Source: Akkermansiaceae bacterium (GTDB taxonomy: Bacteria; Verrucomicrobiota; Verrucomicrobiia; Verrucomicrobiales; Akkermansiaceae). Taken from it: 64,000 bases of DNA. The stretch spans positions 1 through 64,000 of the forward strand of contig CAIXKE010000013.1 in the NCBI GenBank assembly GCA_903919975.1, read 5' to 3'. A program made the position numbers and the translations under genes. Shown piece by piece: positions 12,051 to 17,519 of this stretch (its first letter is position 1; each line of letters opens with the position of its first letter). The notes beneath the pieces are model-generated. The model had not been told where the DNA came from, did not search any database, and saw nothing but the letters and a program-made list of their open reading frames with translations.

Positions 12051-12165
12051 TTGAACCACAGATTACGCAGATTGACACAGATTTTGAAGAGGTTGTAAAA
12101 CCAAAACAGGAAGCCTGATTGGTGGATTATCATATCTGCGAAATCTGTGTAATCTGCGGTTTGAA
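12051..12165. repeat. Long inverted repeat, ACAGATTACGCAGATT type
   Basis: The arm AACCACAGATTACGCAGATT with GACACAGATTT (about 12052-12083) is mirrored by AAATCTGTGTAATCTGCGGTTT (about 12141-12163). The words are near-repeats of CACAGATT, so the element is itself built of short repeats. It fills the space between two convergent genes and could also end transcription from both sides. Confidence 0.65.
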
Positions 12166-12254: not shown

Positions 12255-13442
12255 TCACTTGATGATCTCCACCGCAGAAATATTTTTCATCATGATATCC
12301 GGGCGATTGAGTTCAGGCAAATTACTCACGACGACCTCGCCGGAGACGCGGATTTTTTTTCCGACAAAGGGTTCAAGTTTTTGTATCATCACCCCTTTCG
12401 AGGATTTTCCGATTCTAATACCAGCTCTAGCCGCATTTTGATCCATGCTGGAAAAAACCAGATAGATAGTTTTGCCGCTATCCGAATTATCAATACTTTC
12501 GGCGGTGCCTTCGACGTTTACTTGGTTGTTGTTGTTGGCGACGATGGCCTCATGATCATTCCACTGGAGCGTGACCGGCTGTCTGGCACTTCCTGGGGAT
12601 GAATCGCGGGTCACCACAAAGACGATGACAAGCACCACCACCACCACACCAAGAGCGAGGGATACAATCAGGGGCGCTTTGGAGGGGGCTTTCCAGGTCG
12701 GTAGTTCGGAAGCGTTGGCGACCAAGAGCGCTACGGGTGGCGGTGGTTCGGCACCGACCAAGGCGGCGAGTGATGCACGGGCTTCCTGAAGGGTGGTGGC
12801 GGTCGCGTTCCTGCGCAGCCATTTGAGCCAGCCCCCGAGTCCACCACCGGATTGCTCGCTGTAGATGTGGCCGGTCCAACCCATGGCCTGCTCACCAAGA
12901 ATGGCGATGGCTTCCAGCCCGCGAGTCTCCTGACTGCTGCCCAACCACTTGAGCGGGGAAATCCAGAACGTGAATCCGCGGACGCTCTCGGGGCTGCTTA
13001 CAATGATGGATTGCAGGTTGGTTTCTATCCAAATCGCCTCTTCAGCGAGCACATGGGAGAACAGTTCGCAAACTTCCAGCGCCTGGGTGATCAAGAGAAT
13101 GGCGGACTCGGCGGGAAAAGCATTTTCCGCAATGAATGCGGCGAGCGGTTCGCCTTCGATCCATTCGGTGACGATAAAAGGCATGCGATCGACGGGATCG
13201 CATGCGCCACAAACAACCGAGCGCAGAGCTGGATGTTTCAGCCCGGCCAGCCGATCCACGGCGATTTCGTAAGCGGTTTGCTCTTCCGCATCCAGGCCGC
13301 CGCCGTCGGCTCCGAAGGGGAAAAACCGGCGCACGGCCACAGGCTTCCCGGATTGCGTATCCAAAGCACGAAACACCACCCCGAATAAATCCTGGGAGAT
13401 CAGATCCTCAATTTGGAACCGCTCAATCATTGACTGGAGCAT
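12255..13442 (-). CDS. Membrane-anchored pseudokinase with C-terminal OB-like domain
   Basis: 395 residues. The first 230 resemble a Ser/Thr kinase fold: ISQDLFGVVFRALD in place of the glycine loop, VAVRRF where VAVK is expected (R38), a C-helix-like EEQTAYEIAVDRLAGLKHPAL and a hinge FIVTEWIEGEPL. The catalytic HRD loop is replaced by IWIETNLQSIIVS and DFG is absent, so phosphotransfer is unlikely. A membrane helix follows (LIVSLALGVVVVVLVIVFVV), then an extracytoplasmic part with VNVEGTAESI and KKIRVSGEVVV that looks like an OB fold. It lies 53 bases after the CBM9-like gene, in the same direction. The role is probably regulatory, through binding; this is inference. Confidence 0.75.
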   Translation of the reverse strand: MLQSMIERFQIEDLISQDLFGVVFRALDTQSGKPVAVRRFFPFGADGGGLDAEEQTAYEIAVDRLAGLKHPALRSVVCGACDPVDRMPFIVTEWIEGEPLAAFIAENAFPAESAILLITQALEVCELFSHVLAEEAIWIETNLQSIIVSSPESVRGFTFWISPLKWLGSSQETRGLEAIAILGEQAMGWTGHIYSEQSGGGLGGWLKWLRRNATATTLQEARASLAALVGAEPPPPVALLVANASELPTWKAPSKAPLIVSLALGVVVVVLVIVFVVTRDSSPGSARQPVTLQWNDHEAIVANNNNQVNVEGTAESIDNSDSGKTIYLVFSSMDQNAARAGIRIGKSSKGVMIQKLEPFVGKKIRVSGEVVVSNLPELNRPDIMMKNISAVEIIK

Positions 13443-13495: not shown

Positions 13496-14095
13496 TCATC
13501 CCGGGAAAGGTGCGAGCACGATTTTGGAAAACTGCTGCGGCTGGTGAAAATCAGGCACCTCGCCACCCAGCGCCACTGCGGTGATGAATTTCTGATCCGG
13601 CGAGCCGAGAATCATCGCCACGTTGACCCGCGAGCGCGCACCGAAATCCAATCGCACCCTCAGCAAATCGAGCGAAATCGCCATGGCGGCGACCCATCCA
13701 CCATCAGGTGCCAGCTCTGAAAAGGTCTCTACGTCCGGCATGACAATGTCCGTTGACTCCTCCCGGACGCGGGCGGCGGTGAATTCACACGACCACCAAG
13801 CGCCATTGGGTGCTAGATTGAACTCGAAATATCGACCACTCAGCGGATCGGCGATGAAAAGTTCCGCGACATCATGCTCCCACAAACCGGCTTGAAAACG
13901 ACCGGGCCGCGCCGCCGGGTGAAGGTTGGCGGGGCGGCGGTGGTGGGCGATGAACCACAGCCGGCTGGCATCCATGGCGAGGGAAAATGCGGCCGCTGGC
14001 TCCAATGGAGCGCCATGCCAGTCCTTCGCGAGCCCCAGCATCGGCACGTCTAACTCGCCCCACACCAAGGGGCGCGGGCTAGTGAAAATCGTCAT
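13496..14095 (-). CDS. CBM9-like / DOMON-like carbohydrate-binding domain protein
   Basis: 199 residues with no signal peptide. The central part, LWEHDVAELFIADPLSGRYF then EFNLAPNGAWW, matches the beta-sandwich core pattern of carbohydrate-binding module 9-like domains (W-x-x-D-x-x-E-(L/V)-F, followed by YxEFxxxPxG). Such domains bind sugar ends; in stand-alone proteins the role is often unknown. It is upstream of the pseudokinase in the same direction, so the two may be co-expressed. The protein appears complete. Family call by motif only. Confidence 0.65.
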   Translation of the reverse strand: MTIFTSPRPLVWGELDVPMLGLAKDWHGAPLEPAAAFSLAMDASRLWFIAHHRRPANLHPAARPGRFQAGLWEHDVAELFIADPLSGRYFEFNLAPNGAWWSCEFTAARVREESTDIVMPDVETFSELAPDGGWVAAMAISLDLLRVRLDFGARSRVNVAMILGSPDQKFITAVALGGEVPDFHQPQQFSKIVLAPFPG

Positions 14096-14245
14096 GCGCG
14101 AGTCTTTTGCCGGGGCGGCCCGGTTGTCGAGAAAGGAGCGCCGAGGCCATGTGATGAAATTCTTTGAGGGAAATCATAATTTTCGAAAAAATCATAGCCT
14201 TCTGGCCCAATTTACGCTTCAACCCGTTTGAGAGGAAATCATTTC

Positions 14246-15043
14246 ATGGCCCGTTCCCGTCAAGGATTCTACAACACCATCGAATACATCGGCCCGCGTC
14301 CGCAAAAGCCGAAGCGTTCGAATTTTTTCGGTGGCTGGGTGATTCTGGTGATTGCCATTGGGATTGGTTGTTGGTTTGGCCGGCCGCTGGTTCCTTTCCT
14401 CAAAGCGGCACAGGAAGGCGTCTCCATGGAGCAGGCGGAAATTCTCATTTCCTCGCTGCAAGATTCGCCCAATCCGGCGCAACGCCTCGCCGCCGCCGCC
14501 CTCATCCACTCGGGAGAAAACATCTCCTTCGATCCCGCATATTACCGCATCGCCTATCCGGATGGCGATGTCGCTCCCACCAAGGGAGCTGAGGCGGACG
14601 TTGTCATCCGTTGCGTGCGCAAACTCGGCATCGATCTTCAAAAAGAAGTCCACGAGGACATGAAATCGCATTTCCGTTACTACCCGCAATTGTGGGGTGC
14701 TTCCGGGCCGGACACCAACATCGACCACCGCCGCGTGGCCAACCTGCAACGTTTCTTCGAGCGCAAGGGCACCACGCTCACCGCCAGCCGCGAGGCTGCG
14801 GACTATCAGCCGGGCGACATCGTCATTTGGTCGCTGGCCAATGCTGACAAACACATCGGCATCATCGTTCCCGGCCCCGGCACCCACATGGCTGAGCCTT
14901 GGGTGGTCCATAACATCGGTGCCGGCGTGAAATGGGAAAATACACTCTTCGACTACAAAATTGAAGCCCACTTCCGTTATCCCGCTGAGAAGGATTCCAC
15001 TCCGCCGAAAGCAAAGGTGATCTCTGAAGAGCCCTCGATCTGA
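14246..15043 (+). CDS. DUF1287 family membrane-anchored protein
   Basis: 265 residues from the ATG at 14246, preceded by a good GAGAGG site about 9 bases upstream. An N-terminal basic part is followed by a membrane helix (GWVILVIAIGIGCWFGRPL). From residue 90 the DUF1287 pattern is plain: YYRIAYPDGDV, ADVVIRCVRKLGIDLQKEVH, PDTNIDHRRVANLQRFF, YQPGDIVIW, HIGIIVPG and VVHNIGAG. DUF1287 belongs to the NlpC/P60-like cysteine-hydrolase world; the cysteine in VIRCVRK could be the nucleophile. A role in the cell wall is plausible but not shown. Confidence 0.88.
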   Translation: MARSRQGFYNTIEYIGPRPQKPKRSNFFGGWVILVIAIGIGCWFGRPLVPFLKAAQEGVSMEQAEILISSLQDSPNPAQRLAAAALIHSGENISFDPAYYRIAYPDGDVAPTKGAEADVVIRCVRKLGIDLQKEVHEDMKSHFRYYPQLWGASGPDTNIDHRRVANLQRFFERKGTTLTASREAADYQPGDIVIWSLANADKHIGIIVPGPGTHMAEPWVVHNIGAGVKWENTLFDYKIEAHFRYPAEKDSTPPKAKVISEEPSI

Positions 15044-16798: not shown

Positions 16799-16897
16799 AG
16801 TTCGGCCACGTCTGCCGAGCCCCCACACATAACCTCGTTTTCACCGGAATCCGCCTTACCAATTGACAGGATCAGTAAGGTGAATGATGCTTTCTGC

Positions 16898-17140
16898 ATG
16901 CTGATCAAGGTGACCAACAAACGACAGGTGACTTTCCCTGCTGCCGTGCTCAAGGCCTTGGGTGCCGGTCCCGGGAGCCATTTGGAGATTCAACAGCGTA
17001 GCGACGGATTTTTGCTTCGCCCGCGTGTGATCGATCGCAGCAAGCTGGCTCCCTTGCGTGGATTGATTGAAAAAGGAGCCAAACCGTTTGATCTCGAAAC
17101 CTTCCGTAACCAGCGCCATGACCCATCGCTACGGGATTGA
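16898..17140 (+). CDS. AbrB/SpoVT-type antitoxin
   Basis: 80 residues from the ATG at 16898; a GTG at 16880 with an upstream AGGA is an alternative that adds six residues. The swapped-hairpin AbrB motif is clear: MLIKVTNKRQVTFPAAVLKAL then GSHLEI. The C-terminal tail would wrap the toxin. It overlaps the PIN-domain gene by 23 bases, as in VapBC-type pairs, and is expected to bind both the toxin and its own promoter. Confidence 0.88.
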   Translation: MLIKVTNKRQVTFPAAVLKALGAGPGSHLEIQQRSDGFLLRPRVIDRSKLAPLRGLIEKGAKPFDLETFRNQRHDPSLRD

Positions 17141-17519
17141 TACGTCGGTTTTCGTCCGCTTGTTGACCGGTGAGCCGGAGGCGGAATATCAGAAAACGGT
17201 AAAGGCCTTCGAGCATCGCATGGAAGTCGAACCCAAAGCGGAATTCTTCGCATCGAACCAAGTGATCGGCGAGGCCTACATGGCGCTCCAACATCATTTC
17301 GGAATCGCCAAGGCAGATGCCAAAGCCGCCATGTGTGATGTGCTGACGAGCGGGCTTTGTTCGCCACAAAACGGCTCTTCGGTATTTGATGCATTGAGAG
17401 CGGACAAAGGATGCGACTTGCTGGATCGGTTGATCGCAGATGACTACGCCGCCCACAATATGAAGACGCTTACCAACGACACGAAGATGTCCCGCCTCAC
17501 GAATGCGGAAAAACTGTGA
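17118..17519 (+). CDS. PIN-domain toxin (VapC-like ribonuclease)
   Basis: 133 residues from the ATG at 17118. The PIN acidic residues are all in place: D8 in GIDTSVFVR, E52 in VIGEAY, D103 in LLDRLIA and D121 in TNDTKM. These bind Mg2+ and cut RNA, in VapC usually tRNA or rRNA. It is translated with the AbrB-type antitoxin upstream (23-base overlap). All catalytic residues suggest an active toxin. Confidence 0.9.
   Translation: MTHRYGIDTSVFVRLLTGEPEAEYQKTVKAFEHRMEVEPKAEFFASNQVIGEAYMALQHHFGIAKADAKAAMCDVLTSGLCSPQNGSSVFDALRADKGCDLLDRLIADDYAAHNMKTLTNDTKMSRLTNAEKL

Follow-up and report, generated by a model that had tools for sequence, protein, structure and literature searches.

Receptor kinases of the PknB (PASTA) type are laid out as a kinase domain, a transmembrane segment and an external domain. 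Among pseudokinases, EssB/YukC of type VII secretion is presented in a review (PMC12599244) as a cytoplasmic pseudokinase with a degraded Gly loop, a shortened activation segment and one membrane helix. The same review describes the MviN/MurJ pseudokinase (ActPs3), in which all motifs are degraded, the activation loop is deleted and, in many members, a helix follows the kinase domain. Here we analyze a predicted membrane pseudokinase with an OB-like outer domain, encoded in a 64,000-nt stretch of an Akkermansiaceae genome (the whole stretch is hereafter called the window). Neither "verrucomicro" nor "OB-fold" occurs in the review PMC12599244. A search of the open-licence literature found no description of an OB-fold with a bacterial Ser/Thr kinase or transmembrane pseudokinase and, by title, no report of such a pseudokinase from Verrucomicrobia or Akkermansiaceae.

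The features on which our analysis draws are as follows.

12255..13442, minus strand: gene for a protein with pseudokinase, membrane helix and OB-like domain, 395 aa; alternative start ATG at 13430
12747..13430, minus strand: predicted kinase-fold domain, residues 5-232, with Gly loop SQDLFG, VAVR38, W138-I-E140 at the HRD place and T158-F-W at the DFG place; activation segment of 17 residues
12606..12680, minus strand: single membrane helix, residues 255-279, predicted from the structure model and hydropathy/charge
12258..12575, minus strand: C-terminal OB-like domain, residues 290-395, predicted to lie outside the cytoplasm
13496..14095, minus strand: stand-alone protein of predicted CBM9 fold, 199 aa, separated from the downstream pseudokinase gene by 53 nt
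14228..15043, plus strand: DUF1287 protein (Pfam E 2.9e-57), divergent from the CBM9-like gene

The initial annotation had described a clean frame whose product is anchored by one helix. The frame is exactly where it was placed, on the minus strand and coding for 395 aa, and a single membrane helix is predicted. The true start may nevertheless be the ATG at 13430, because orthologues begin near the position of Met5. Elsewhere in the window, an intergenic inverted repeat at 12054-12161 has 20-nt arms that are 90% complementary and is built on CACAGATTACGCAGAT, of which the genome holds four exact copies; a small ORF pair at 16880-17519, AbrB-like then PIN-like, looks by eye like a toxin-antitoxin module.

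By structure model, the inner half of the protein has a bilobal protein-kinase-like fold. The whole-protein AlphaFold2 model, made from 14 alignment rows, reached a mean pLDDT of 79.4 and a pTM of 0.56. In VIA, residues ~1-232 matched PknI best (5m09; Z 17.7, rmsd 3.5, 214 residues), PknA scored Z 17.6, and kinases among the best 50 matches listed spanned Z 15.7-17.7 over 205-224 residues; the best Foldseek match was PknB (E 9.5e-10). Only kinases were among the matches listed by Foldseek and VIA for the whole model, and structures of EssB/YukC and MviN were absent among the fold matches listed, an absence that carries no weight against a relationship. The kinase fold that had been proposed, with structure prediction as its check, is therefore clear in the model. 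Sequence methods detected only the N-lobe: NCBIfam kinase models matched the protein at E 2.5e-6 to 3.9e-4 and the PknB model at E 1.5e-5, all far under the cut-off, PknB chains in the PDB matched at E 1.3e-5, and Pfam kinase models matched none of 14 family members at E 0.1.

Catalytic motifs were read from an alignment of 62 family rows and 19 kinase rows from the same genome, two of which are one protein. Eighteen of the 19 Pkinase places in the genome gave rows for this alignment and the early tree (L137 gave none and L122 repeats L134), and 17 were used in the later tree and in profile scoring. A contig fragment (L094) was excluded from family counts, and a degenerate kinase without OB (L121) was included in the OB-locus, first motif-alignment and charge counts and left out of the segment and signature counts, the final motif counts and both trees. 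Judged by the residues of an active Ser/Thr kinase (Pkinase, PF00069), the window protein falls short at every one, with R, E, S and T in place of the beta-3 Lys, catalytic Asp, Asn and DFG Asp. Across the family, the beta-3 position is Arg in 51 rows and Lys in a single one (L115), the alpha-C Glu is retained in 2 of 62, the catalytic-loop Asn in 1 of 62 and the DFG Asp in none. The losses of the beta-3 Lys (R38) and of DFG named in the initial annotation are thus borne out, and canonical phosphorylation chemistry is, as it had supposed, absent by motif loss. Two of its statements need amending: the glycine loop has lost two of its three glycines but keeps the third (G21), which is preserved in 58 of 62 rows, and the HRD Asp is indeed gone but has been replaced by Glu (E140), itself an acid. 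The stretch between the DFG position and helix F also differs in length: it counts 17 residues in 49 of 62 family rows, the window included (range 13-39), whereas 11 of the 19 kinase rows have 38 (range 30-44), and the APE Glu occurs in 1 of 62 family rows vs. 19 of 19 kinase rows. Five N-lobe residues, Q17, R39, D82, D85 and P88, are identical in all 62 family rows.

The outer domain was said to resemble an OB fold. In the whole-protein model, the order of elements in residues 290-393 (b-b-b-a-b-b) fits OB topology, but matches to OB-type (tRNA_anti-type) Pfam models were weak, with a best E of 4e-4, and came from 2-5 of 47 members. Against solved structures, the OB profile found glucose dehydrogenases best (E 0.0027), with RecG at E 0.074. 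The OB set A3 comprises 46 of 58 OB stretches plus that of the window. The window domain matches the family OB profile at E 5.5e-31, being itself one of the profile rows. Among the 62 pseudokinase loci, OB is present in 53, doubled in several, and absent from nine; of these nine, L047 is truncated where its contig stops, G061 continues through stops, and in G149 a short OB match at a contig end is consistent with being the part that the truncated pseudokinase gene there lacks. With whole-genome E-values, the profile matched 81 of 195 family genomes at E 1e-5, including a small number of proteins that are short or 290 aa long and have no kinase part. Four open frames of 153-180 aa (L175, L176, L182 and L199) carry the same OB domain behind a stretch that looks by eye like a leader and perhaps represent a stand-alone exported OB family. 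As for orientation, net charge around the helix in 63 proteins was higher on the N side in 44, lower in 6 and equal in 13, the window protein being among the last; charge and layout together suggest that the kinase half lies inside and the OB domain outside.

Of 195 genomes searched in the window's family, 62 gave a strong match to the pseudokinase (E 1.3e-20 or better). They are distributed over genera g1 (35, of 44 genomes), g7 (16), g8 (1), g11 (9) and g12 (1), where the genomes of the family and class searches are even samples of larger groups. Genera g2, g9 and g12 also contain more weakly matching members that share the layout and the losses, and g9 has further ones by eye. In an order-wide search of 239 genomes, 28 matched at E 1e-20, all of them in the window's family. 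Thirteen relatives are labelled Akkermansiaceae, Verrucomicrobiaceae, Verrucomicrobiales, Verrucomicrobia, Akkermansia or Prosthecobacter, and these labels are mutually inconsistent. Five g1 loci without the gene (L103 and L123-L126) held no convincing remnant of it, the best match reaching E 0.007 over 19 residues.

Purifying selection has kept the pseudokinase in relatives of the window. Among the 25 closest relative pairs, NG86 estimates of dN/dS for the kinase half could be computed for 24 and were 0.05-0.37, although these values are rough, with many dS above 1, and come from pairs that do not include the window gene. For the whole protein, dN/dS rose to 0.57 in one pair. The kinase-half range indicates that the family is not decaying.

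We also asked where else the OB domain occurs. Its profile matched 85 of 335 genomes of the class, 66 of them outside the window's family. Among 26 OB-bearing proteins that we read, part of those listed outside the family, 16 were canonical kinases from 13 families and 10 were other proteins; this proportion is not a frequency, because the last 12 were picked for lengths of ~450-550 aa. The 16 kinases (L173, L174, L177-L181, L183, L185, L209-L213, L216 and L220) have motifs of DFG and APE type together with HRD, which is HLD in one. Fifteen of them have their strongest hydrophobic stretch between kinase and OB. Scored with the pseudokinase profile, their median was 31.2 bits, vs. 10.7 for 17 other kinases of the window's genome and 62.7 for kinases with HEAT repeats, but six of the seven HEAT-kinases had been chosen from pseudokinase matches and score high in part for that reason, which makes the window's own genome the fair place to compare; there, the HEAT-kinase reached 57.7 bits and the 17 other kinases at most 29.0. 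Taken together, OB- and HEAT-kinases scored above the other kinases (Mann-Whitney p 1e-4), and four of the 16 OB-kinases scored just 4-15 bits. Within the window's genome, 12 of the 19 Pkinase matches form two runs of six (G000 contigs C10, 1572-13228, and C98, 19830-32578).

An earlier tree of the 62 family rows and 19 kinase rows split the two on one branch (100/98), with long-branch warnings. In a later, unrooted tree of 27 of the 62 pseudokinase rows against 40 kinases, the pseudokinases again formed one branch (support 100/99), and the tree resolved three branches, namely pseudokinases, other genome kinases, and OB- and HEAT-kinases (100/99, 99/92 and 94/91). A clade of pseudokinases with OB-kinases is not rejected by the AU test (p 0.255), the best tree being one without it; because the trees are unrooted and have long branches, they do not settle which group is sister to the pseudokinases. 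One family member, L115 (in G005), keeps the beta-3 Lys, HxD, the APE Glu and the signature residues and matches Pkinase at 1.3e-12, and has lost the DFG Asp, the Asn and the alpha-C Glu. Its placement is unsure because it lies on a long branch and its OB is weakly detected (5.6e-12 in the 62-locus search and not seen at E 1e-5 in the whole genome). The pseudokinase probably descends from active OB-receptor kinases, although an independent fusion is possible because OB also occurs alone or on other proteins, as in 10 of the 26 read. More tentatively, we envisage a stepwise conversion in which canonical OB-kinases passed through an intermediate such as L115 to strongly selected pseudokinases that gained a new N-lobe binding site, closed down the activation segment and may now serve as allosteric subunits of active kinases.

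Given its maintenance by selection and its probable descent from working receptor kinases, the protein probably signals through binding and not through phosphorylation. We therefore favor, with moderate confidence, the reading that it is a single-pass receptor pseudokinase derived from an active OB-receptor kinase and acting by binding, as a scaffold or allosteric partner; a scaffold-type role, already raised in the initial annotation, is plausible for a membrane pseudokinase without phosphorylation chemistry. The ancestor would have been a receptor Ser/Thr kinase that was active and bore an OB domain on the outside, of a kind that survives in other families of the class, and the window's family would have lost the catalytic residues and activation segment while keeping the fold, the membrane helix and, mostly, the OB domain. 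The cytoplasmic half may bind a partner, such as a kinase, an FHA-type protein or a component of an envelope machine, through its N-lobe, where the signature residues would form the binding face. Outside, the OB domain may sense or anchor to an envelope ligand, and output would be allosteric or scaffolding instead of phosphotransfer. No common partner emerged from neighbors shared across genera. Instead, neighbors vary by genus, being CBM9 in g1, a RecG-like gene downstream in g7 and CinA- or Maf-like genes in g11, while some g1 genomes have a GTPase-like gene on the downstream side (all non-CBM9 names by eye).

A more specific proposal is that the dead subunit pairs through its N-lobe with an active relative, the kinase-TM-HEAT protein of the window's genome (G000:C112, 936 aa), and tunes its activity, so that catalysis would reside in one protein and the OB sensor in the other. 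This HEAT-kinase is the sole other pseudokinase match in that genome, with the lead in score given above, and the HEAT part (Pfam HEAT_2) occurs in 50 of the 62 pseudokinase genomes (intersected by eye). However, the remaining 12 have no HEAT match at E 1e-10, which leaves the HEAT-kinase unsupported as an obligate partner, and HEAT is also present in 77 of the 133 genomes that have no strong match to the pseudokinase (127 of 195 overall). Moreover, many HEAT matches cover only part of the profile and may belong to proteins without a kinase, the scores of the other six HEAT-kinases carry the selection bias already described, and no linkage between the two genes was seen. We thus regard this pairing as unlikely.

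Lower still do we rate the idea that the fold retains nucleotide binding or has acquired new chemistry, like SelO or SidJ, through R38/R39 and the acid E140. The prevalence of Arg at the Lys place would suit such chemistry, as would the invariance of R39, D82 and D85 and the acid that 46 of 62 rows have where the HRD Asp would stand (Glu in 38, Asp in 8). Yet both metal-ligand positions (the Asn and the DFG Asp) are gone almost throughout, the acid is missing in all g11, g12, g9 and g2 rows and in three g7 rows with the gene retained, and the invariant residues sit in the N-lobe.

The initial annotation also paired the pseudokinase with its CBM9-like neighbor. A CBM9-like gene does lie upstream on the same strand, and its product has, by model, the CBM9 beta-sandwich fold: sequence comparison with Pfam CBM9_2 gave E 0.049, under the cut-off, whereas the model (pLDDT 91) matched 4jpq at Z 19.2 and three entries of two CBM9 modules at Z 14.3-15.7 (7nwn, Z 15.7). 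Among genomes that carry the pseudokinase, 28 of 35 in g1 and none of 27 in other genera have the two genes side by side, with coordinates intersected by eye and some draft contigs ending near the pseudokinase gene; in G010 they lie ~5 kb apart on opposite strands. The presence of CBM9 itself is uninformative because it is found in 185 of 195 family genomes at E 1e-5. Each gene also occurs without the other, as in nine g1 genomes that have CBM9 (E <=2.1e-6; eight at <=6e-52) and whose pseudokinase matches are at best E 9.8e-7, and in G141 and G176, which have the pseudokinase and no CBM9 match. DUF1287 is a steadier and wider-spread companion of CBM9 than the pseudokinase is, standing beside it in 22 of 26 g1 loci fetched with the pair and in 8 of 9 CBM9 loci sampled at places with no pseudokinase nearby. 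The divergent CBM9-like and DUF1287 neighbors recur in several genera of the family with the pseudokinase present or not (window 13496-15043, L123-L130). No leader-like stretch was seen by eye at the conserved start of the CBM9-like protein in 14 rows, which suggests that it is probably cytoplasmic and not a partner for an external ligand. On the linkage counts, we reject a general functional pair, and although the shared strand and a 53-nt gap with no terminator-like site would suit a two-gene sensor in g1, we consider one very improbable. Least credible of all is a decayed kinase without function, which the missing motifs and the loss of OB in some copies might suggest, in the face of an intact frame, the low dN/dS in relatives and the retention of the gene in 62 of the 195 family genomes.

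How, then, does our preferred reading, a receptor pseudokinase that acts by binding, sit beside described systems? By the description available in PMC12599244, the window protein shares with EssB/YukC each of the features listed at the outset, but it differs in its OB-like outer domain. It likewise shows the activation-loop deletion, degraded motifs and C-terminal membrane helix described there for ActPs3, but it is without the MviN part, comes from a different phylum and departs from the ActPs3 motif signature (VALT, Lsidhps; Table 1 of the same source), having, by eye, VAVR and WIETNLQS instead. Nor does it carry the GLW pseudokinase signature (GLW at HRD and poly-Leu at the beta-3 Lys), with WIE and VAVR at these places. 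From the descriptions in the review, we regard it as resembling EssB/YukC and MviN and do not assign it to either.

The PknB-type kinases are among its nearest solved folds and sequence matches, but they are active, whereas the window protein has no catalytic residues and has an OB-like domain in place of PASTA. The canonical kinase-TM-OB proteins share with it a homologous OB domain and the same order of parts, and differ in having kept the motifs that its family has lost. These proteins also point to OB domains as a further external part of bacterial Ser/Thr kinases, alongside PASTA. Across lineages, these proteins would form a series from a working receptor kinase to a catalysis-free receptor with the same outer domain, which makes the role of a kinase fold after catalysis testable in environmental bacteria.
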